A stretch of 34,721 nt of DNA, taken from contig JACAAZ010000014.1 in assembly GCA_013376995.1 (NCBI GenBank), forward strand, positions 94,169 through 128,889, in the 5' to 3' direction. The notes under the pieces were generated by a model that was given only the letters and a program-made list of their open reading frames with translations, was not told the origin of the DNA and ran no database searches. Source of the DNA: Bacteroidota bacterium (GTDB lineage Bacteria; Bacteroidota; Bacteroidia; Bacteroidales; UBA4417). Position numbers and translations under genes: made by a program. Below are positions 5,192-34,721 of the stretch, piece by piece (position 1 is the stretch's first letter; every line of letters starts with the position of its first letter).

Positions 5192-6124
5192 TTACCCCTT
5201 CGGCCTGACCGGCAGCAATACATCCTTCATGATGCTTTCATAAGGTTTATATGCTGGGCATTCTTCGAATATTTCAAACCCAATAAGTTCAGATAAGCTG
5301 AAACCCATAGATTCAATAAAATTGTGATTCATGGATACAATTTTGTTCCAGGTAGCCTCCAGGTCCCCTTTCATTCGAAGGCTTGCATACTTACCTGCAT
5401 CCATCGAAAATAACTCAGCACCCTTGTAATTCATGGTTTCAGCGTCAATTTCTATACCGGCAAGGTAACGGCACTTTTCAAGGGACGTAAAAACCGGGGC
5501 GTCCAGCCATATTCCAATAAAATGGCTTTCTTTTCTGTGAAGCTCATTTGGAATAGCCCATTTCATAAGGTTCCGGAAAGCAAGGCTGATACATTCAGGG
5601 TGATTAAGAACGATCGGGATGCAGGCAAATTTTCTGCCCGGGACCCATTTAATGGTTGGACCGGATGAGAATTCGGGCTGATTTTGCCTTTCAGGGTTTT
5701 GCTTTACCCATTCTATCAATCCTGGTATTTCAATTTTATTTTCTTCACCATCAGGGGAGTAAAGATCTGAGTTGGGCATAGTCCGGAATGTTTCCGCATT
5801 CACCTGGTAATGGCTTTTAAAAGCGCGTGAGAAGGTGGCCGGGGAAGAAAAACCGCAATTAAAGGCTATTTCTGCAACCGGCATTTCAGGAAATATTTTC
5901 AGGTAATGTGCAGCTTTTTCGAGCCTGAGCCTGATCACATATTGCTTGGGTGTTTCCCGTATTGCTTCCTGGAAGATCCGCTGAAAATGATAGGGTGAAT
6001 AATTGGCAACTTCTGCGAGAACCTCAAGGGAAAGATCATCAGGAAGATGCTGATTGATATAATGCAATACCTTAAGAACGCCTTTCTTATGATCCGGTTG
6101 TATGTGGTGATCGTGCTCGTGCAT
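5192..6124 (-). CDS. AraC-family transcriptional regulator with GyrI-like effector domain
   Basis: 310 aa from the ATG at 6124; a GTG at 6190 would add 22 residues. A near-consensus -7 box (TCACTTTG, one mismatch) at 6176-6169 lies inside that extension and favours the ATG. The N-terminal 110 residues form the AraC double helix-turn-helix: LSLEVLAEVANYSPYHFQRIF and, after MPVAEIAFNCGFSS, ATFSRAFKSHY. Residues about 140-310 are a GyrI-like (BmrR effector / SOUL-related) domain that binds small hydrophobic or cationic ligands in family members. The layout, DNA-binding domain first, matches Rob/SoxS-like GyrI regulators. It probably activates the membrane methyltransferase gene just downstream. 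The His-rich start (MHEHDHH) is unusual, and any metal role is speculative. Confidence 0.85.
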   Translation of the reverse strand: MHEHDHHIQPDHKKGVLKVLHYINQHLPDDLSLEVLAEVANYSPYHFQRIFQEAIRETPKQYVIRLRLEKAAHYLKIFPEMPVAEIAFNCGFSSPATFSRAFKSHYQVNAETFRTMPNSDLYSPDGEENKIEIPGLIEWVKQNPERQNQPEFSSGPTIKWVPGRKFACIPIVLNHPECISLAFRNLMKWAIPNELHRKESHFIGIWLDAPVFTSLEKCRYLAGIEIDAETMNYKGAELFSMDAGKYASLRMKGDLEATWNKIVSMNHNFIESMGFSLSELIGFEIFEECPAYKPYESIMKDVLLPVRPKG

Positions 6125-6272
6125 GTGGCGGATATTTCGGGCAATGTTTTTTAAAAGGGGCAGAGGCGCAAAGTGAAAATGGAATCGCACATCTGTTTTC
6201 AGTTATGGATTAGAGAAAAGACAAAACACGCTAGCTAAATGGAAGTCAAATCAAACAACCTGGCAGTTATCA

Positions 6273-6710
6273 CTATTCACCAATGTCTTCGTTCCAAAGC
6301 TCAGGATTTTTCTCAATGAAATTGGTCATGATGGAAACACATTCTTCATTGTTTTCGACTATAACTTCGACATTGTTTTCTTTGAGGAGGGTTTCTCCAC
6401 CCAAGAAAGTCTGGTTTTCACCAATTACGACTCTTGGAATCCCGTAGAGTAAAATTGCTCCCGTGCACATCGGGCAAGGGGAAAGAGTAGTGTATAACGT
6501 GCATTCACGGTATACAGAGGCCTTTAGCCTGCCGGCATTTTCAAGGGCATCCATTTCAGCATGCAGGATCACGCTGCCTTTCTGCACTCTGCGGTTGTGG
6601 CCTCTTCCAATGATGTGTCCCTTATGCACCAGGACAGACCCAATAGGTATCCCTCCCTCTGCCAGGCCGGCCCTTGCTTCTTCAATTGCTGCTTTTAAAA
6701 ATGCATCCAT
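6273..6710 (-). CDS. Cytosine deaminase, fungal FCY1 type
   Basis: 145 aa zinc-dependent deaminase of the CDA fold. It follows yeast cytosine deaminase closely from end to end: GGIPIG near the start, GRGHN (N39), HAE with zinc ligand H50 and proton-shuttling E52, TLYTTLSPCPMCTGAI with ligands C79 and C82, YGIPRVVIGEN, and a C-terminal W139-NEDIGE, where the yeast enzyme has its substrate-contacting W and D. The inferred reaction is cytosine to uracil plus ammonia, for pyrimidine salvage. The usual bacterial enzyme, CodA, is an unrelated amidohydrolase. The gene stands alone with gaps on both sides. A TATATTTT box (one mismatch) lies upstream. A related small deaminase for another base cannot be excluded, but the C-terminal closure argues for cytosine. 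Confidence 0.85.
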   Translation of the reverse strand: MDAFLKAAIEEARAGLAEGGIPIGSVLVHKGHIIGRGHNRRVQKGSVILHAEMDALENAGRLKASVYRECTLYTTLSPCPMCTGAILLYGIPRVVIGENQTFLGGETLLKENNVEVIVENNEECVSIMTNFIEKNPELWNEDIGE

Positions 6711-6812
6711 TTAAAATAATTGTTTGGAAAATATAATTAGTGATACGTTTTAATAATCCAGTAAAATAAATCGAACTAAAAATTACTACTGGCAAAAATG
6801 GAACGCTTCTGC

Positions 6813-6822
6813 CTGCCGGCAG
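6813..6822. repeat. Short palindrome, CTGCC-type
   Basis: CTGCCGGCAG, a perfect 10-bp palindrome with imperfectly paired flanks. It is a weaker member of the dispersed palindrome family. A small hairpin (CCGC-GAAAA-GCGG, about 6840-6852) follows. Nothing else is recognised between 6711 and 6900. Confidence 0.5.
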
Positions 6823-6899
6823 ACAGGGATTACGCTGAACCGCGAAAAGCGGCCGCTGATTTACGCGGATGTGATTTCCTTGCTAACCAAATCTAATTC

Positions 6900-7023
6900 A
6901 ACTCCTTCCGGCTTCCAACTTCCTGCCATCTGCCTCCTGCCTCCTGCCTCCTGCTTCCTACTTCCTACTTCCTGCTTCCTACTTCCTACTTCCTACTTCC
7001 TACTTCTTACTTCCGGCTTCCAA
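6900..7023. repeat. Low-complexity CTTCC array, left part
   Basis: Irregular heptads of the type CTTCCTA / CTTCCTG, ending in TTCCGGCTTCCAA. The same vocabulary and phase resume at 7817. With 7024-7816 removed, the two parts join into one uninterrupted array of about 520 bp. Reading frames through it are a result of the repeat, not genes. Confidence 0.9.
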
Positions 7024-7107
7024 CGGTCGGGGCTTGGCGCTGGGGCTTTGTGTAGTAGGCCTGGCGCGTCGGGACAAAGCCCTAGCAGCTAAGCCCATGT
7101 TATGCCC
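7018..7107 (-). other. attC-like recombination site of the cassette
   Basis: Read on the minus strand: R'' arm GGGCATAAC (7107-7099); then GGGCTTAGCTGCTAGGG...TTTGT; a 22-nt loop; then ACAAAGCCCCAGCGCCAAGCCC; then CGACC and the core G/TTGGAAGC at 7024. The two arms of about 22 nt pair almost fully, with one unpaired extra base and a few mismatches, as in integron attC hairpins. The R'' arm is the exact complement of GTTATGCCC at the other end of the insertion (minus 7817-7809), which would become the R' arm in the excised circle. This was identified by eye; no covariance model was run. Confidence 0.8.
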
Positions 7108-7112
7108 GGTGC

Positions 7113-7463
7113 TTACTCCTCAAGCAATAATATATTCTCTATTTGTTTTTTATTTTCAGGAAGATCATTTGTAGCAACGTCCCAAATAATTTCATAATCT
7201 ATACCAAAATATTCATGCGAAATCTTGTTGCGCATTAAATACATTTCTGCCCAAGGGACATCTGGATATTTATCTTTGATCTCAGAGCTAAGGTTTTTAG
7301 CTGCTTCTCCTATTATTTCAAAATTTCTTATAACAGCATCTACTGTTTTATAATCTTTTTTAAAGACAGAAAAAGAAAGACCTTCTGTATACTCGCCAAT
7401 TCGATTCATGGCAAGCAGAAGGTCTTCAAGATACATTTTATATGTTCGATCTTCTTTTTTCAA
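7113..7463 (-). CDS. hepT: HepT-like HEPN toxin (DUF86 family)
   Basis: 116 aa, all-helical HEPN domain. The active-site motif RX4HXY is intact at R78-NKIS-H83-E-Y85. In HepT proteins R and H form the RNase site, and the Tyr is the residue AMPylated by the partner MntA. VIRNFEIIGEAAKNL (residues 44-58) is the usual HepT helix. The start is a TTG placed 1 base after the mntA stop; an ATG at 7436 would remove nine residues. With mntA it forms the only gene content of the cassette. The expected role is as toxin in a type VII toxin-antitoxin pair, either stabilising the cassette or acting in defence. Confidence 0.88.
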   Translation of the reverse strand: MKKEDRTYKMYLEDLLLAMNRIGEYTEGLSFSVFKKDYKTVDAVIRNFEIIGEAAKNLSSEIKDKYPDVPWAEMYLMRNKISHEYFGIDYEIIWDVATNDLPENKKQIENILLLEE

Positions 7464-7464
7464 G

Positions 7465-7755
7465 CTAGACGTAGTTAACTTTTTTTAGAATGCTATCCTT
7501 GATTTGTTCTTTTAGAGCATTCTTAGTCACGAGATCTATTTTTCTGTTGAAGATTTTTTGCAAGTATAATTCAAGAGAGAAGAACTTCCAGCCGATGGGT
7601 CTTTCAAGTTCTACAATCAGGTCGATGTCGCTCTCGTCTGAAAAAGTTCCGTCAGAGAATGAACCAAATAGACCAATCTCTTTGACAGAGTAGTCATTAT
7701 AAAGAGCTGGTTTTAACTCTTTTAATTTTGTAAGGATGTCATTCTTTGAAATCAT
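7465..7755 (-). CDS. mntA: MntA-like minimal nucleotidyltransferase antitoxin
   Basis: 96 aa, the usual length of MNT proteins. The polymerase-beta-type motif GSX10DXD is complete (G31, S32, D43, D45), with the third acidic residue probably D74 in KIDLV. Family members transfer AMP onto the tyrosine of HepT and so silence it. The gene precedes hepT with a 1-bp gap, so the two are surely co-transcribed. The -7 box of the promoter ends only 4 bases before this ATG, so the transcript would be leaderless or nearly so. Confidence 0.9.
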   Translation of the reverse strand: MISKNDILTKLKELKPALYNDYSVKEIGLFGSFSDGTFSDESDIDLIVELERPIGWKFFSLELYLQKIFNRKIDLVTKNALKEQIKDSILKKVNYV

Positions 7756-7759
7756 GAAT

Positions 7760-7791
7760 CAAAGATAAGAAAAATTGAGATGGGCAACCAA
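7760..7791 (-). promoter_or_regulatory. Bacteroidota-type promoter inside the cassette
   Basis: On the minus strand, -33 TTG at 7791-7789, a 21-bp gap, then -7 box TATCTTTG at 7767-7760, an exact TAnnTTTG match. The mntA start is at 7755. The cassette thus brings its own host-type promoter and does not need an integron Pc promoter. Confidence 0.65.
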
Positions 7792-7816
7792 CTAGATTTA
7801 TTTGCATCGGGCATAA

Positions 7817-8213
7817 CTTCCGGCTTCCAACTTCCTGCTTCCTACTTCCTGCCATCAGCTTACTGCCTCCTGCCTCCTGCTTCCTGCCATCAGCTTCCTG
7901 CCATCAGCTTACTACCTCCTGCTTCCTACTTCCTACTTCCTGCTTCCTGCCATCTGCCTCCTGCTTCCTGCTTCCTGCTTCCTACTTCCTACTTCCTGCT
8001 TCCTGCTTCCTGCTTCCTACTTCTTGCTTCCGGCTTCCAACTTCCGGCTTCCAACTTCCGGCTTCCAACTTCCTGCCATCTGCCTACTGCCTCCTACTTC
8101 CTAATTCCTACTTCCTACTTCCTGCTTCCTGCTTCATGCCATCAGCTTACTGCTTCCTGCCATCTGCCTACTGCCTCCTGCTTCCGGCTTCCAACTTCCG
8201 GCATCCGAAATCC
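7817..8213. repeat. Low-complexity CTTCC array, right part
   Basis: The array continues with CTTCCTG/CTTCCTA heptads, GCCATCTGCCTCCTG interludes, and 14-bp units TTCCGGCTTCCAAC at about 8030-8070. The sequence TTCCAAC, which reads GTTGGAA (an attC-core-like GTTRRR) on the minus strand, ends at 7024, 7831, 8041, 8055, 8069 and 8195. The array stops 7 bp before the stop codon of the next gene. The long frame 7780-8247 through it translates to Leu/Pro/Ser repeats and is not called as a gene. Confidence 0.9.
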
Positions 8214-8219
8214 CGCTCC

Positions 8220-10448
8220 CTACTTCTTCCCGAAGCAAAACAAATGATGTTGTCCCCTAATAAAAATCATCCCATCCGAAATAGCCGGTGTCGACATGCA
8301 AATTTCTCCAATCGGATTTCGGGTGATCTGTTCGAATTCCGGACCTGCCTTTACAACGATTTCCCCTTTTTCTTCGCTTGTGAAATACAGTTTACCATCA
8401 GCAGCTACTGGTGAAGCTGTAAATGCTTCTCCATCCTTCAGGTTCTCCCTGTATTTCTTTTCTCCCGATTTAGCATCATAGCATGTAAGGGTTCCATTGT
8501 TGTTAAGTGTGTACAGGTAACCATTGTATGCAATAGGTGTAGGCATGTAGGTGCCACCCTTCCTGGTTCGCCATTGAATAAAGGGGCCTGAATTCAGGCT
8601 GTCGGCGATGGAGATATTTCCTTTTCCTCCCGGTTTGATGGCGAATATTGGTTGCATGGGAGCATAACCTGCTGTGACAAAGATAAGGTCATCCATTACA
8701 ACAGGTGTTGCTACCGTGATCTCAGATGAAGGCCCCAGCCGCCAGAGCTCTTCACCGGTGAGCGGGTTGTTCCCCCTGATGAACCGGGAACCATTTGTAA
8801 TGATTTCGTCCCCTGTTGGACCTGAATAGAGTGTAGGTGTTCCCCAGGAGGATATCTCTTCCCGCATCGTTTTCCATAACTCCCTGCCGGTCTTCAGGTC
8901 ATAGGCTGCTAAATAGGAATCTTTTGACCTGTCGCATTGAACGATGACTGAATTTTTATAAATGATTGGAGAACTGGCACTACCCCATTGGGTCTCCTCG
9001 TCGAAAAACCAGCCTGCATCCAGGATGCCCAGGTCTTTTCTCCATATTTCATTTCCAACCAGGTCATAGCAGATCATACCTTCTGAACCAAATATGGCTA
9101 CAACATATTCTCCGTTGGTGACTGCTGTGGCATTAGCCTGTGTTGCTTTGGGATGTCTTTTTACTCTCGGGATTCCTTCGTAGGCCTTTTTCTCCCAAAG
9201 GATACTTCCGCTATTCTTATCAAGACAATAGATTTTCCATGTATGAAAAGAGCTATCCTCAACAGGTACGACATCTCCATAAAGTCCTACCCTGTAAGCT
9301 GCCGAGGTATCCTTCCCCATAGCAGTGGTAAGGAATACTTTGTCCTTCCATATTATCGGGCACGAATGAGCAAGCCCGGGAATAAATGTCTTCCAGCGAA
9401 GGTTAATTCCTTTTACAGCATCAAAATTCAGCGGAGGATATTGACCGTCACCGATCCCGCGAGCCTGGTTTCCCCTGAATGAAGGCCAGTTAATAGGTTG
9501 CAAAACATTTCCCTCTATGTCTTTGAAGACAGCCTTTCTTTTTAAGGTATCTGCTGCAGTTTGATCTGCTACTTTGAAGAATTGCGTTGAATTGCCAGCC
9601 TGGACAATTGTAAGGCTTGCAGGTATATCCTGGACCATTTCAAATGTTACATTAATTCCCGGGATATCTTTGAATGTAAACTCATTTCCGTCCTTAAGCT
9701 CGAGGGCATAATCAGGACTACCATTGAAGCTTAGCCATAGTGCTGCATCTTTGATGCGGGTTGTAACGAAAGTTTCGTCTTTAGCTTTATAGGTGCCAGC
9801 AAGCGCTTCGTTTATTGATCCTGTTACGGGCTTTTTTTCAGGTAGTTTCGCCCCAACTTTTAACAATGCCTGGATCATGGTTTGGTTTCCCATGCTTGTG
9901 GCTGTCAACAGGGCCTGTGAAAGGTTTTGCGCATCAGGAACGGTTGTTTTAAGGATATCCGTGACCAATAATGAATCTGCATTCCGGACTGCCGCCTGCA
10001 GAGCTTGTCCTGAGCCGGGGGCTCCTTTTTGAAGGAGCATTAATTCAACCTCCTTCAGCCCGCCATAGATGGAATACATCATGGGTTCTTCCGTGCTGAT
10101 ATCAGCTCCGTGATTAACCATTTCGGTGATTATGGAGATGTTTCCCTTGTCAAATGACCACAGGAAAGGAGTAGCTCCATAGAATGAATCTTTGAGATTT
10201 GGATTCGCCCCATGTTCAAGAAGGAGTTTAACTGCTTCCGGATGTACCTTATCCGTGGCATACATCAGGGCTGTAGCACCATATTGTGTTTTTACATTGA
10301 CATCTATACCCTTGTCCAATAATTCCTTAAGGGTCTTTATGTCATTGGTTTTGGCGGCTTTCCAGAAAGTCTCGTTTTGATCCTGGGAGAAGGAATAAAC
10401 AAAGAATAGCAATAAACTAATTAAAGCCAGGGTGAATTTTGAATTCAT
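8220..10448 (-). CDS. Exported ankyrin-repeat / PQQ-type beta-propeller fusion protein
   Basis: 742 aa. A signal peptide covers about residues 1-21 (cleavage near FSQ). Ankyrin repeats follow at about 25-210: AAKTNDIKTLKELLDKGIDVN, then GATALMYA and GATPFLW repeats. A linker domain of unknown fold spans about 215-320. From about 330 to the end lies a PQQ/BamB-like eight-bladed propeller: blade motifs such as WKIYCLDKNSGSILWEKK, AAYDLKTGRELWKT and LTGEELWRLG, closing with MIFIRGQHHLFCFGKK. Ankyrin plus propeller suggests a periplasmic or surface binding scaffold. No catalytic residues are recognisable. It stands alone with a 470-bp gap upstream. Confidence 0.85.
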   Translation of the reverse strand: MNSKFTLALISLLLFFVYSFSQDQNETFWKAAKTNDIKTLKELLDKGIDVNVKTQYGATALMYATDKVHPEAVKLLLEHGANPNLKDSFYGATPFLWSFDKGNISIITEMVNHGADISTEEPMMYSIYGGLKEVELMLLQKGAPGSGQALQAAVRNADSLLVTDILKTTVPDAQNLSQALLTATSMGNQTMIQALLKVGAKLPEKKPVTGSINEALAGTYKAKDETFVTTRIKDAALWLSFNGSPDYALELKDGNEFTFKDIPGINVTFEMVQDIPASLTIVQAGNSTQFFKVADQTAADTLKRKAVFKDIEGNVLQPINWPSFRGNQARGIGDGQYPPLNFDAVKGINLRWKTFIPGLAHSCPIIWKDKVFLTTAMGKDTSAAYRVGLYGDVVPVEDSSFHTWKIYCLDKNSGSILWEKKAYEGIPRVKRHPKATQANATAVTNGEYVVAIFGSEGMICYDLVGNEIWRKDLGILDAGWFFDEETQWGSASSPIIYKNSVIVQCDRSKDSYLAAYDLKTGRELWKTMREEISSWGTPTLYSGPTGDEIITNGSRFIRGNNPLTGEELWRLGPSSEITVATPVVMDDLIFVTAGYAPMQPIFAIKPGGKGNISIADSLNSGPFIQWRTRKGGTYMPTPIAYNGYLYTLNNNGTLTCYDAKSGEKKYRENLKDGEAFTASPVAADGKLYFTSEEKGEIVVKAGPEFEQITRNPIGEICMSTPAISDGMIFIRGQHHLFCFGKK

Positions 10449-18057: not shown

Positions 18058-18145
18058 GGAGTTATTGGTTATTCGTTATTGGTTGTTAGTTATTGGTTGT
18101 TAGTTATTGGTTGTTAGTTATTGGTTGTTAGTTATTGGTTATTGG
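18058..18145. repeat. 14-bp tandem repeat GTTATTGGTTGTTA
   Basis: Four full copies at 18075, 18089, 18103 and 18117, with partial copies on both sides. It lies directly upstream of the guaD promoter box, so copy number could change the promoter's upstream spacing. Confidence 0.9.
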
Positions 18146-19344: not shown

Positions 19345-20892
19345 TTATGATCCTGCCAATTTATACAAACCGAATTCTGAAAGACAGGGTGCCATTCTGC
19401 ATTCATCGATGATAAGCCTGATTTTACCTGTTGTAACAGTTTGAAAACGAAGCAGTCTTTTAAATCCGATGGTTGTTCCACTGGTTAATGTTTGCCAGTT
19501 TCCATCCACCAAGGCCTGGAGACGGAATTTTTCGATCCTTTGCCCCTTTTCAATGTTCTCCTGGAGTTGAAGTACATCAAAAGTCTTCATACCCTGAAGG
19601 TCCATTTCCAGCATCCAGGGTCCGTTACGCCCGCAAATCCAACTGCTGAATGGATCGGCATCCAGCAACTTCGCCGTTTCTCTGATTCCTTTGGAGGATT
19701 GGTTTGTTGACTTAGCATTTTTAGCAAGGTTTACACCAAATGTTTCGTCCAATGAGCGCTTCCATTCTTTCAATGAAGCAATATCGGCAGCATTGATGCG
19801 ACCATGTCGATCAGGAGGGATATTCAACAGCAGTTGTGAGCTCCTGCCTATTGAACAAAAAAAGATATCTAAAAGTTTGTTAGCGTTCTTAACTGTCGTG
19901 TTTTCTTTCTCATGCCAGAACCAGCCGTTCCTGATTGAAACATCTACTTCGGATGGGTACCATGCAAGTGCAGTAGCAGTCCGGATAAGGTTTCGACTAC
20001 CAAGATCAACGGCCATCCTGTCTCCTGGCGGGATAAAAGCTTCCCTGCTTTCTTCCTGCTGCGATTGCCCGGCAACCAGGTCTGGGTTTGCCAGTTCTAC
20101 AGGTACTACACTCCATTCCGTTTCCCGGCCATAACCACTCTCGGTCCCGACCCATCTTACATCAGGTCCCATGATCGCAATTACGGCATCTGGCTGAAGA
20201 GTTCTGACAGTTTTATAATAAGATTGCCAGTCATATACCTGTTTGTTTCCATTGGGTCCTTCTCCACAGGCTCCGTCAAACCATACTTCTGCTATTGGGC
20301 CATAAAGTGTTAGCAATTCAGTAAGCTGATTGATAAAATGTGTATTGTATGCCTCAGAGCCGTAGGATTTTTCATGACGATCCCAGGGCGAAAGATATAT
20401 CCCAAACCTTATTCCGGATTCATGACAGGCGTTGGCCAGCTCACTTACAACATCTCCTTTCCCTTGTTTCCATGGGCTGGATGCAACCGAATGAGTTGTG
20501 TATTTTGATGGCCACAGACAAAATCCATCATGGTGCTTACAGGTGAGGATAATACACTTCGAACCTGCATCCTTGCATACCTTCACCCATTGCCTGGCAT
20601 CCAGGGAATCAGGGTTGAAACGCGCGGGATCTTCACTTCCGTTTCCCCATTCCTGGTCATAAAAGGTATTTATTGAAAAATGCAGAAATGTTGTCAGCTC
20701 CTGTTTTTGCCAATTCAATTGGCGTAAGGACGGAGTTATTGAGGCGGCAATTTTGATTCTCTCAGCTTCTGAGCAGTTTGCCGGTATCCTTGAAATATTG
20801 TTTCCCTGGTAGGATTCCTGTGCCGAGATAGTTTGCTGGTAAATAAAGGTATTGAGGAAGATGAGGATAGTGAAAAGTATGGGTCTGTTCAT
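19345..20892 (-). CDS. GH29 alpha-L-fucosidase, exported
   Basis: 515 aa. A signal peptide covers about residues 1-24 (cleavage near SAQ). The GH29 barrel spans about 45-385: FLHFSINTFYDQEWG, CKHHDGFCLWPSKYT (119-133), FGIYLSPWD, and EVWFDGACGEG with the probable nucleophile D206. The C-terminal about 110 residues resemble an F5/8-type-C (discoidin) carbohydrate-binding module: DADPFSSWICGRNGPWMLEMDL, then GKIRLIIDECRMAPCLSEFGLY. It should release terminal fucose from glycans in the periplasm or outside the cell. No SusC/SusD pair lies nearby, so this is not a typical polysaccharide utilisation locus. It is 51 bp after the aminotransferase gene. Confidence 0.9.
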   Translation of the reverse strand: MNRPILFTILIFLNTFIYQQTISAQESYQGNNISRIPANCSEAERIKIAASITPSLRQLNWQKQELTTFLHFSINTFYDQEWGNGSEDPARFNPDSLDARQWVKVCKDAGSKCIILTCKHHDGFCLWPSKYTTHSVASSPWKQGKGDVVSELANACHESGIRFGIYLSPWDRHEKSYGSEAYNTHFINQLTELLTLYGPIAEVWFDGACGEGPNGNKQVYDWQSYYKTVRTLQPDAVIAIMGPDVRWVGTESGYGRETEWSVVPVELANPDLVAGQSQQEESREAFIPPGDRMAVDLGSRNLIRTATALAWYPSEVDVSIRNGWFWHEKENTTVKNANKLLDIFFCSIGRSSQLLLNIPPDRHGRINAADIASLKEWKRSLDETFGVNLAKNAKSTNQSSKGIRETAKLLDADPFSSWICGRNGPWMLEMDLQGMKTFDVLQLQENIEKGQRIEKFRLQALVDGNWQTLTSGTTIGFKRLLRFQTVTTGKIRLIIDECRMAPCLSEFGLYKLAGS

Positions 20893-20943
20893 TGATATTC
20901 AGTGTGTTAAAAACCATTCCGTGGATCCGGTTTCAAAGGTTTT

Positions 20944-22134
20944 TCAAACTGCTTGTTTAATGGATTCAGCAATTATACTGCATGCTGATGTGATTTCCTG
21001 GTTCGTGATCGTCAGGGGAGGGGCAATGCGTATGGAAGAAGAGTTAAACAGGAACCAGTCGGTGATCACGCCTTTTTCAAGATTCAGGTCTATCACCTTT
21101 TTAACGCTGTTAAAATCCTTTAATTCGACAGCGATCAATAAGCCTGAACTTCGATAATCCAGAACTCCCGGAAGCCCGGAAAGCAATTCCCTGAACAACC
21201 CGCTTTTTCCCTTAACCTGTTCAGCCAGTTTCTCTTCCAGGATGACATTCAGGTTTGCCAGTGATGCTGCACAGCAAACCGGGTTGCCTCCGAATGTTGT
21301 GATATGCCCCAGAATTGGATCATGACTCAGTGACGACATGATCTCCCTTGACGAAATAAAGGCCCCGATCGGTAATCCTCCCCCCATTCCTTTGGCTAAA
21401 ACCAAAATATCCGGTATTACATCGTATCCCTGGAAAGCGAATAACTGACCGGTCCTGCCGAATCCCGACTGTATCTCATCAAAAATGAGCAATGCTCCCG
21501 TTTCGGTACATCTCTCCCTTAAGGCTTTCAAGTATTCAGGAGTGGATGCGAAAATACCAGCTTCACCCTGTATAGGTTCAATAATTACGCAGGCACATTC
21601 ATTTGTTATTTTTTCAAGGCCTTCACTGTCATTCAGTTCAATTTGAATAATGTCAGGCAGAAGCGGGTAAAATGGCTTTTTCAGCGTTTCATCACCCATA
21701 ATGCTCAGGCTGCCGTGAGTTCCGCCGTGATAGGCATTCCTGTAGGAAACTATTTTGTGACGGCCTGTAAATCTTTTTGAAAGCTTCAAGGCTCCTTCAA
21801 CGGCTTCGCTTCCGCTATTTACGAAATAGGTAGATTGAAGTTCAGGTGGAAGCACTTCGGCCAGCTTTGCAGCCAGTTTTACCTGGGGTGATTGAATGTA
21901 TTCACCATAAACCATCAGGTGAAGGTAACGGTCGAGTTGCTGCCTGATGGCTTCAATTACTTTTGGATGACGGTGGCCTGTATTGCTGACCGAAATACCG
22001 GAGATGAGGTCCATGTATTTCTTCCCGTCAGGCGAAAAAACATATATACCTTCGGCTCGTTCAACCTCAATACCAATAGGCGATTCACTTGTTTGGGCGA
22101 GATATGAAAGGAACAATTGACGGTCAGTTATCAT
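20944..22134 (-). CDS. Class III aminotransferase (ornithine/acetylornithine-like)
   Basis: 396 aa, fold-type I PLP enzyme of class III. SGISVSNTGHRHPKV is followed by FVNSGSEAVEGALKL (104-118), YHGGTHGSLS, IIEPIQGEAG, LLIFDEIQSGFGRTG with PLP-contacting D219, and the Schiff-base lysine K248 in LAKGMGGGLP. TTFGGNPVCCAASLA follows. It belongs to the ArgD/RocD/GabT cluster. The substrate is not certain, and no arginine-biosynthesis genes are adjacent. It may share a transcript with the fucosidase gene, although the two have no clear metabolic link. Confidence 0.87.
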   Translation of the reverse strand: MITDRQLFLSYLAQTSESPIGIEVERAEGIYVFSPDGKKYMDLISGISVSNTGHRHPKVIEAIRQQLDRYLHLMVYGEYIQSPQVKLAAKLAEVLPPELQSTYFVNSGSEAVEGALKLSKRFTGRHKIVSYRNAYHGGTHGSLSIMGDETLKKPFYPLLPDIIQIELNDSEGLEKITNECACVIIEPIQGEAGIFASTPEYLKALRERCTETGALLIFDEIQSGFGRTGQLFAFQGYDVIPDILVLAKGMGGGLPIGAFISSREIMSSLSHDPILGHITTFGGNPVCCAASLANLNVILEEKLAEQVKGKSGLFRELLSGLPGVLDYRSSGLLIAVELKDFNSVKKVIDLNLEKGVITDWFLFNSSSIRIAPPLTITNQEITSACSIIAESIKQAV

Positions 22135-23638: not shown

Positions 23639-23766
23639 GACATTCAATGGTCATTCAATGGTCATTCAGTGGTCTTTCAGTGGTCATTCAGTGGTCATTC
23701 AATTGTCATTTCCGCCAGCTGGCGGATCATGCAATAGTCATTCAGTTGGAAGGCTAAGCGCTTAGC
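23639..23766. repeat. 12-bp tandem repeat, palindrome and GCTAAGCGCTTAGC
   Basis: About six copies of TCATTCARTGGT (23641-23710) run into the dispersed palindrome TCCGCCAGCTGGCGGA (23711-23726). ATCATGCAATAGTCATTC follows. The palindrome with both flanks reappears in reverse orientation at about 28450-28540, giving an extended shared element of about 45 bp. A separate perfect palindrome, GCTAAGCGCTTAGC, lies at 23753-23766. Situated between convergent genes. Confidence 0.85.
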
Positions 23767-23914
23767 GCATAGGGCGTAGAGTGAGGTTTCTAATAGAAGA
23801 ATTCTTTGCGACTTTGCGTCTCTGTAAGATAACTATTTGAAGGTCAATCTCCCCAAGCCCCCCCGCTTCTCCCCATCTCCAAGTCCCTCTATCCCCGAGT
23901 CCTCCCATCTCCAA

Positions 23915-23998
23915 GTCTCCCCATGTCCAGGTCTCCCATGTCCAGGTCTCCCATGTCCAGGTCTCCCATGTCCAGGTCTCCCATGTCCAGGTCTCCCC
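23915..23998. repeat. 15-bp tandem repeat GTCTCCCATGTCCAG
   Basis: Five copies from 23915 (the first has one extra C), then a C-rich run to 24030 (CCTTCTCCTTGTCCCC, repeated). Lies between the 3' ends of convergent genes, just after the stop of the xer gene. Since 15 is a multiple of 3, both strands show open repeats here, which are not called as genes. Confidence 0.92.
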
Positions 23999-24033
23999 TT
24001 CTCCTTGTCCCCCCTTCTCCTTGTCCCCCCTTC

Positions 24034-24951
24034 TTACTTCCCCCAGTCCTTCCCATAAATCGGGTGGTGTGAAAGAATGGCATCTCTCAAGTATTCACGG
24101 CTGAGGTGAGTATAAATCTCCGTGGTAGTGATACTTTCATGTCCAAGCATCTCCTGCACGGCACGAAGATCAGCACCGCCTTCCACCAGGTGAGTGGCAA
24201 AGGAATGCCGCAAGGTATGCGGACTCAGTTTCTTATGAATGCCAGCTATGGCTGCCAGGTCTTTAAGAATTGTGAAGATCATTACCCGGCTTAATTTGCT
24301 GCCCCGTCGGTTGAGAAATACGAAATCTTCATGACCTTTCTTAATAGAAGCATGAGAGCGAATTTCGTGCATGTACACCCGGATCTGGTCTAATGCTCTT
24401 TTTCCTATGGGGATCAGACGTTCCTTATCTCCTTTGCCGGTTACCCTGACAAATCCATCATTAAAATAGATATTGCTGATCTTGAGATCTGTAAGCTCCG
24501 ATACTCGCAGGCCGCAGCTATACATGGATTCAATTATGGCTTTATTCCTTTCTCCTTCAGGTTTAGACAGGTCGATGGCAGCAATCAGCCGTTCAATGTC
24601 GTTTACGGATAGCACATCCGGCAGTTTACGGCCAAGCCTGGGTGATTCGAGTAATTCAGTAGGATCAGAATCGATCATGTTCTCCAGCAGAAGGTACTTG
24701 TAGAAAGCCCTGATACCCGATATGTTTCGCATCTGTGAGCGGGCATTTACCTGGGATTTGTTGAGCCATTTCAGGAATTCCTGTAATTCTTCAAGTGTAA
24801 TGCCAGGGGGCATCTTGTTTGAACCGGTTTCTTCAAGAAATTTGGTGAACTTATCAAGATCATGCAGGTATGCTTCAATTGAATTAGCCGATAACGACTT
24901 TTCCAGTCTAAGGTAAGCTTGAAATCCCCTTTTAAATGATTCCCAGATCAT
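24034..24951 (-). CDS. xerD: XerD-like tyrosine recombinase
   Basis: 305 aa, full length. The N-terminal core-binding (SAM-like) domain spans about 1-95. The catalytic domain carries all six residues: R149 in CGLRVSEL, K173, H245 and R248 in LSPHTLRHSFATHL, H271 in LGHESI, and nucleophile Y280 in IYTH. This is the standard Xer pattern for resolving chromosome dimers at dif with FtsK. The product matches XerD better than an integrative-element integrase by length, and no element surrounds it. It is not an integron integrase: the IntI-specific extra helix region is absent. XerC versus XerD cannot be settled without the second copy. Confidence 0.88.
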   Translation of the reverse strand: MIWESFKRGFQAYLRLEKSLSANSIEAYLHDLDKFTKFLEETGSNKMPPGITLEELQEFLKWLNKSQVNARSQMRNISGIRAFYKYLLLENMIDSDPTELLESPRLGRKLPDVLSVNDIERLIAAIDLSKPEGERNKAIIESMYSCGLRVSELTDLKISNIYFNDGFVRVTGKGDKERLIPIGKRALDQIRVYMHEIRSHASIKKGHEDFVFLNRRGSKLSRVMIFTILKDLAAIAGIHKKLSPHTLRHSFATHLVEGGADLRAVQEMLGHESITTTEIYTHLSREYLRDAILSHHPIYGKDWGK

Positions 24952-28068: not shown

Positions 28069-28580
28069 TAACTGCCAATTGCATGACTATCATAAGACAA
28101 ATCCGTCAACTGACGGAAAAGACAAAAGACAAAAGACAAAAGGCAAAGTGCAAAGTGCAAAGGGTAGCAGTCAGAAGGCAGTGGGCAGTTAGCGGTAGGC
28201 TGTAAGTAAAAGATAAAAGATAAATCCGCCTCAGGCGGAAAAGATTAAAGTGGAAGGCTGTATTGGGCGGAGGGCTGACAATTGGAAAGCAGATCCAGAC
28301 GCTATGCCCATTGCCCTATGCGCTTTGCTTATTTCCATCGAATGACCATCATAATACAAAAGACAAAAGTGGAAGGCTGGATTGGGTGGAGGGCTGACAA
28401 TTGGAAAGCAGATCCAGACGCTATGCCCATTGCCCTATGCGCTTTGCTTATTTCCATCGAATGATCCGCCAGCTGGCGGAAATGACCATCGAATGACTAT
28501 CGAATGATCCGCCAGCTGGCGGAAATAACCATCGAATAACCCAATCCCCCCCCATACTCATATCCTAAACTATTCTCTCT
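28069..28580. repeat. Repeat-rich intergenic block with palindromes and a 99-bp duplication
   Basis: Four dispersed palindromes: TCCGTCA-AC-TGACGGA (28102-28117), TCCGCCT-C-AGGCGGA (28225-28239), and TCCGCCAGCTGGCGGA at 28465-28480 and 28508-28523. A segment of 99 bp is duplicated nearly exactly (28247-28345 and 28366-28464, offset 119 bp). GACAAAA words fill 28118-28150. The two 16-bp palindromes sit between AATGACCATCG-type words shared, inverted, with 23640-23740. No gene is present between ftsY and rimO. Confidence 0.9.
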
Positions 28581-34615: not shown

Positions 34616-34721
34616 AGGAAAGAATAAAGATAAAAGACAAAAGGAAAAAGACAAAAGGAAAAAGACAAAAGGAGAAAGACAAAAGGAAAAAGACAAAAGG
34701 AAAAAGACAAAAGGAAAAAGA
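34616..34721. repeat. 14-bp tandem repeat GACAAAAGGAAAAA
   Basis: Purine-only repeats run from about 34620 to the window end, with at least five near-identical 14-bp units from 34638. The GACAAAA words match those at 28118-28150 between ftsY and rimO. Its length beyond the window is unknown. Confidence 0.9.

Follow-up and report, generated by a model that had tools for sequence, protein, structure and literature searches.

The window (the whole 34,721-nucleotide stretch of DNA that was analyzed) contains, at 7024–7816 of the minus strand, a 793-bp unit that its borders and folded site mark as an integron-type mobile cassette. On the evidence below, the probability that this cassette is a member of a Bacteroidota integron run by a tyrosine recombinase other than IntI, here called REC, was put at about three in four (0.76). 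The support, all of it at the sequence level, comprises G/TT borders, a covarying attC, cassette arrays in a relative, and REC genes followed by attI-like sites and same-strand chains. In the mechanism proposed, REC would cleave between G and TT, both in attI and in attC, the latter as a folded bottom strand. It would insert the excised cassette circle at attI or, on occasion, at a GTT elsewhere, and the cassette of the window, which carries hepT and mntA, would have ended up in such a GTT inside a repeat array. We infer that REC itself placed it there.

The hepT/mntA cassette and its target

On the minus strand, the unit reads G/TTATGCCCG (7817/7816), mntA, hepT, GGGCATAAC, a bulged hairpin, and CCG/TTGG (7024/7023). 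Followed from 7816 to 7024, it begins G/TTATGCCCGATG... and ends ...GACCG/TTGG, where it meets the repeat array. The 5′ border (7808–7817, minus) was located by reading the sequence, and would contribute the R′ arm once the cassette is excised as a circle. The attC (7024–7107, minus), assigned from its fold and from covariance models, features R″ at 7099–7107, an imperfect hairpin with an extrahelical base, and the last G at 7024. The first-pass annotation had described complementary ends, a G/TT junction at both borders, and an R′ arm derived from the opposite end of the cassette. All three features held up: both junctions were read directly, plus-strand GTTATGCCC (7099–7107) pairs exactly with GGGCATAAC (7809–7817), and R″ is the exact complement of the first bases of the cassette (start tag and R″ agree at 10/10 positions). 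As inverted repeats, the two ends agree at all of 9 bases and at 93% of 14. The proposal, made in the same annotation, of an integron-type cassette in a Bacteroidota host was supported as well.

The mntA-like gene (7465–7755, minus) encodes a predicted nucleotidyltransferase antitoxin of 96 aa (Pfam NTP_transf_2, PF01909, 50.8 bits), and the hepT-like gene (7113–7463, minus, TTG start) a predicted RNase toxin of 116 aa (Pfam HepT-like, PF01934, 105.4 bits); both scores exceed their cut-offs. With the NCBIfam MntA and HepT models, the scores were 43.1 and 41.1 bits, respectively, which are below the cut-off of 60 in each case. Standing side by side in the cassette, the two genes constitute a putative type VII HepT/MntA toxin–antitoxin system. 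At HepT/MntA homologues in six other loci, no attC of the type described by covariance model R2 was found; 3/6 had a start-tag pair that was exact or off by a single base, and by reading one of these alone (L041, genome G028) was cassette-like. Its start, GTTATACCCC, and its R″, GGGGCATAAC, differ by one mismatch, and its downstream sequence is a different one; a cassette of another type may thus carry this cargo too.

The array that received the cassette has 7/14-bp repeats and was delimited by a tandem-repeat search to 6902–7023 on the left and 7817–8192 on the right (no strand assigned). That the insertion target was a GTT within this array was supported by direct reading: the insertion point is the GTT of GGAAG/TTGGAAGCC, in the GGAAGTTGGAAGCC unit of the array, and the site reads GGAAG/TTGGAAG. 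The perfect rejoining of repeats claimed upon excision was upheld in part. With 7024–7816 cut out, the 14-mer repeats are indeed back in register and 37 nt match the remaining array; however, because the repetitive array lets 55/625 nearby offset pairs match equally well or better, this rejoining is weak evidence. No empty site was found, and the two relatives with the neighboring gene carry no repeat array there. Rfam yielded no family at E≤0.1 within 6700–8400 of the window. Further tandem arrays, with units of 7–160 bp, are located at 1–364, 18060–18145, 23641–23710, 23872–24044, 28239–28537, and 34632–34721.

The attC site in the host and its relatives

Judged by its fold and covariation, the window-type hairpin is a genuine attC. 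On the bottom strand of the cassette it folds with −22.3 kcal/mol (z −3.3), a value that none of 200 shuffles attained, and on the top strand with −17.6 kcal/mol (z −1.9), which was reached by 6/200 shuffles. The attC-like bulged hairpin noticed at first pass was thereby corroborated, as it was by covariance models: the window site scored 97.3 bits with model R1, which was built from seven hairpins that included the window site itself, and 82.8 bits with R2, and R1 also found sites from outside its own alignment. In an alignment of 70 sites, the 17-pair stem had 94.1% of its cells paired (shuffles: 71.8%; slid partners: no more than 54.2%), and 203 cells were changed on both sides (shuffles: 55.7); this alignment was fitted to the covariance model, which favors the pairing score. 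When the first seven hairpins were aligned without the model, 93.9% of cells were paired and 4 pairs had changed on both sides. R″ matched its own cassette start at 9–10 of 10 bases in 47/71 attC sites (swapped controls, 177/1420). With DNA parameters, the bottom strand was the better folder in 69/69 short attC, among which related sites are non-independent; the 70th short site, cut by a contig end, was dropped. A second, long type of attC was taken from chosen chains. These 52 sites had a median fold z of −3.1 (cassette interiors, −0.14), and their bottom strand was better in 34 and worse in 18.

The first-pass annotation had called the cassette isolated; the host genome contradicts this. R1 gave 16 matches there, or 14 attC sites once two opposite-strand echoes were subtracted, on contigs C1, C2, C6 (three), C7 (five, in one orientation), C21 (two), and C41 (two). 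A 15th was found in further searches, and the host sites occupy 8 places, one of which is the array of five on a single strand (C7, 54–8427). The start tag is kept at 9 of 10 bases by only 5/14 host attC. Another site lies ca. 2 kb before the window (L104; C6, 92037–92117), where the best start tag (8/10) comes after TTGAGGTTATAAACTAG/TT, much like the attI sites in other genomes.

The search of relatives for cassettes ending in a similar attC, suggested in the same annotation, was positive, with R1 matches in 7/16 genomes of the host genus (E≤0.1) and in Bacteroidales Cfx3-06 (G060). The latter contains 34 attC matches at E≤0.01; a single 15-kb contig (C54) accounts for 22, all on the same strand, so that in an orientation test same-strand arrays were evident both there and in C7 of the host. 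A BLAST search of the unit in 60 relatives returned six additional places, two of which are in the host genome; only the hairpin was matched there, and the neighboring genes differ. A start/R″ pair of their own, at 9–10 of 10 bases, accompanies L032/L102, L033, and L035, and is absent from L031, L034, and L036/L116. A pattern scan of 84,980 species located 13 stretches, 12 in metagenome-assembled genomes (MAGs) of Bacteroidales or other Bacteroidetes and the remaining one in a Chlorobiaceae MAG. In 60 relatives, a short exact attC pattern matched two and was rejected, as both places were without an attC-like stem by reading. Phage searches returned 0 records, and viral contigs gave 0 attC pattern matches and one remote recombinase (27% identity).

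REC and the sequences downstream of it

The first-pass annotation had named an IntI-like integrase as the actor and had suggested that an intI gene be sought elsewhere in the assembly. No match over the curated cut-off of the IntI model (TIGR02249) was obtained in the host genome or in 16 genomes of the genus. The statement that the window holds no integrase was right for IntI, but a tyrosine recombinase is present in it: XerD, at 24034–24951 (minus; TIGR02225 353 bits, cut-off 329.6). The best host match to TIGR02249 below the cut-off is REC, a 475-aa tyrosine recombinase that aligned only to the two halves of the IntI model. It was matched outside the window, at the end of host contig C20 (49041–50462), with a reading frame open throughout.

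An alignment of 13 REC-type proteins shows no variation at the catalytic arginines, lysine, histidines, and tyrosine. From the lysine box to HxxR, the spacing is 58–59 residues in 32 REC, 63–67 in six Xer proteins, and 100 in two IntI; REC is without the IntI-specific I2 insertion and ca. 41 residues shorter there. In a quick tree of 46 proteins, from which archaeal XerA was left out, the Xer set split off from REC and IntI with an SH-aLRT support of 100, and four IntI, on a long branch, fell among the REC proteins, where supports did not exceed 83–84. Among solved structures, archaeal XerA was nearest to REC, followed by IntI4, and the order by fold was the same. The model NF040815 (“site-specific tyrosine recombinase/integron integrase”, cut-off 220) gave 224.6 bits for the host REC and 223.9 for the XerD of the window. 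The same words are already the product name of a REC on a Chryseobacterium plasmid; the name likely comes from this model, which is so broad that the window XerD passes it too.

By reading, the N-terminus of REC holds one to three repeats of ca. 60 aa (IPGAxWSxTxKAWHxP). AlphaFold rendered one repeat confidently as a beta-beta-alpha-beta-beta-alpha domain (pLDDT 91.5) and the whole protein less well, at a pLDDT of 73.6 and a pTM of 0.41. Structural comparison of the N-terminal fold gave no significant match; the non-significant ones included HARP of SMARCAL1 and the damage-recognition domain of XPB, which unrelated folds outranked, and a HARP-like nature of the modeled repeats is offered as a lead only. 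At a guess, the repeats might help to grip folded single-stranded DNA, a task that falls to the I2 helix in IntI.

In relatives, REC lies ca. 100 bp upstream of an attI-like ATATAAACaAG/TT at which same-strand cassette chains start. The motif ATAWA(1-3)RG/TT occurred within 330 bp downstream of 35/68 recombinase genes (median, 102 bp), although at least 7 of these 35 positions are not the apparent attI (L076, L163, L172, L194, L232, L236, L245); the controls were 2/53 upstream and 6.9% in shuffles. The 68 genes were chosen by catalytic motifs from fetched loci, with near-identical genes counted once. Because R2 hardly detects the long type of attC (only 4 matches at E≤1 in 21 loci of other families), chains were followed by their start tags: a link was a start tag and R″ pair with one mismatch in ten allowed. 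For 50 genes, chosen by catalytic motifs from loci selected for long contigs, chains of at least two cassettes began 30–320 bp after the stop codon in 32 (the longest had 15), compared to 36/500 shuffles and 0/24 upstream controls. Chains of at least one were found at 45/50 genes vs. 169/500 shuffles and 5/24 upstream, and single links are thus common by chance. With exact tags, the counts were 10/27 genes, 25/540 shuffles, and 1/8 upstream. The recombinase test set holds at least one IS91-type recombinase (L253).

An attI adjacent to the integrase, with cassettes starting at it, was thus seen in relatives; the host shows the attI-like motif only. Its REC is followed by TATATACTAG/TTACC, 5 bp before the contig end, and therefore no cassette is seen attached to it. 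Contig breaks fell within 600 bp downstream of REC for 27/64 minus-strand matches and within that distance on the upstream side for 6/56 plus-strand matches, the latter measured from the match start and so overstating the upstream distance; these counts cover the first 120 of ca. 150 REC-type matches.

Two Chryseobacterium plasmids carry REC with the same attI, and their sequences agree up to G/TT and diverge directly after it: identity is 97% over the last 300 bp of REC, 95% over the last 60 bp before G/TT, 100% over the last 20 bp, and 25% over the next 20 bp. The 20-bp identity fell across G/TT from 0.90 to 0.52 among three species of one genus, from 0.60 to 0.38 in the host genus, and from 0.56 to 0.42 and 0.55 to 0.30 in two other groups. 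In genome G064, REC, six cassettes of the long type, and one window-type attC share a contig and a strand; the first cassette starts 244 bp after the REC stop codon, without the attI motif.

Several minor features were observed in these loci. A second attI copy stands ca. 3.0 kb into an array, before a different cassette (L178; G146:C76, minus), and a second recombinase-like gene soon follows the attI of REC at L081 (G010:C132). On one Chryseobacterium plasmid (L252), a group II intron reverse transcriptase lies downstream of REC (20726–22042), and on a plasmid of Chryseobacterium oryzae annotated pairs of an IS91 transposase and a tyrosine recombinase come after the first cassette.

Distribution, rival explanations, and known systems

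REC-type matches were found in 154/393 genomes of the order (E≤1e-60) and 112/395 of the phylum (E≤1e-80). These counts may take in other recombinases (G003 is counted, though its matches are IS91-like copies only), and a REC match does not equate to an array, as arrays were sought only in fetched loci. Seven genomes of the host genus have REC and no R1-type attC. The recombinases beside attC clusters in G003 were considered as the integrase and set aside: they occur in several copies, in which a second ORF comes after the integrase ORF or is fused with it, and which we take to be of an IS91-like family (L110, L111). These elements adjoin the attC clusters.

The cassettes could instead be products of a canonical IntI integron that was lost or unassembled in the host, or that acts from other species, with REC a mere neighbor. 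IntI does occur in 5/22 genomes with arrays or REC (G703, G693, G509, G712, and G427, all of more distant families), and in the Chlorobiaceae MAG an IntI (481.6 bits) is accompanied by one window-type attC, on a different contig. Two genomes of the host genus, G003 and G011, have window-type attC and no REC among the only four candidates scored per genome. We nevertheless consider this explanation unlikely. Of the 393 genomes of the order that were searched for REC, only 5 have an IntI over the cut-off, and the host and its genus lack such a match; the remaining 17/22 genomes likewise have none; and at the 32/50 genes described above the chains start in the zone after the recombinase, including in single-contig genomes with chains of 5–7 and no IntI over the cut-off (G752, G468, G470, G529).

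It is extremely improbable that XerC/XerD of the host moved the cassette in the manner of dif-using elements. XerD is encoded in the window, and another contig has a XerC-like gene, but the borders of the cassette are of the attC type by reading, the Xer proteins form a clade apart from REC and IntI, and the tested chains begin beside REC. Loss of mobility, with an old cassette kept for its toxin–antitoxin pair, would agree with the lack of an empty site in relatives and with the weakness of the repeat-register evidence; it too is very unlikely, as the type of attC is common to other cassettes with different genes and as the 10/10 agreement of start tag and R″, with the attC intact, suggests recent mobility.

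With a REC-run integron as the preferred reading, the system resembles canonical integrons in its G/TT borders, folded attC, R″/R′ complement, and better-folding bottom strand, in the small genes of its cassettes on one strand, and in an attI core before the first cassette. It differs in that REC has extra N-terminal repeats and no I2 insertion, and in that REC lies upstream of attI on the strand of the cassettes, whereas intI usually points opposite to them. Taken alone, the unit of the window would be a single attC without a nearby integrase, as in the CALIN class of IntegronFinder, but a candidate integrase and an attI-like site are present elsewhere in the host genome. REC shares the catalytic fold and residues of XerA, XerC, and XerD; it differs from them in adjoining attI and chains and in its place in the tree, where the Xer set is another clade (archaeal XerA being outside the tree). 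IntI has been described to insert cassettes at a GTT other than those of attI and attC, termed attG (Loot et al. 2024, as cited in PMC12901181). The cassette of the window would likewise sit at such a GTT, but its enzyme would be REC.

In the literature, I2 is described as necessary for cassette capture, as conferring single-strand recombination, and as present in no other protein, with direct proof of causality lacking (PMC7790495); as “not fully conserved” in an integron-like subgroup yet essential for integron function (PMC8138268); and, for archaeal IntI, the additional domain is reported to be present, and integrons to have been detected in Bacteroidota (PMC9668308). A set of eleven attC models for different taxa has none for Bacteroidota (PMC8352920), and IntegronFinder 2 named one complete Bacteroidetes integron, in Salinibacter (PMC9024848). 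No paper recognizable as dealing with a non-IntI integron of Bacteroidota was found in the literature searched, which was mostly without subscription papers and preprints.

A wider proposition stands, in our estimation, at even odds: that a sizeable share of Bacteroidota (28–39% of the sampled genomes have REC-type matches) carries integrons that are devoid of I2 and IntI, and that IntI arose from within the REC-type enzymes, which would then be a paraphyletic group. Integrons would therefore have preceded I2, or else the N-terminal repeats, as binders of DNA structure, would have solved the same problem. If this is true, a recombinase without I2 beside attI/attC arrays represents another route to recombining folded DNA, REC is a natural enzyme for testing the origins of integrons, and IntI-based searches overlook many cassette collections of Bacteroidota. 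As a minor observation, the window also encodes an AraC/GyrI-like regulator (5192–6190, minus), for which the Cass2 model (“integron-associated effector binding protein”) gave 26.8 bits against a cut-off of 27.
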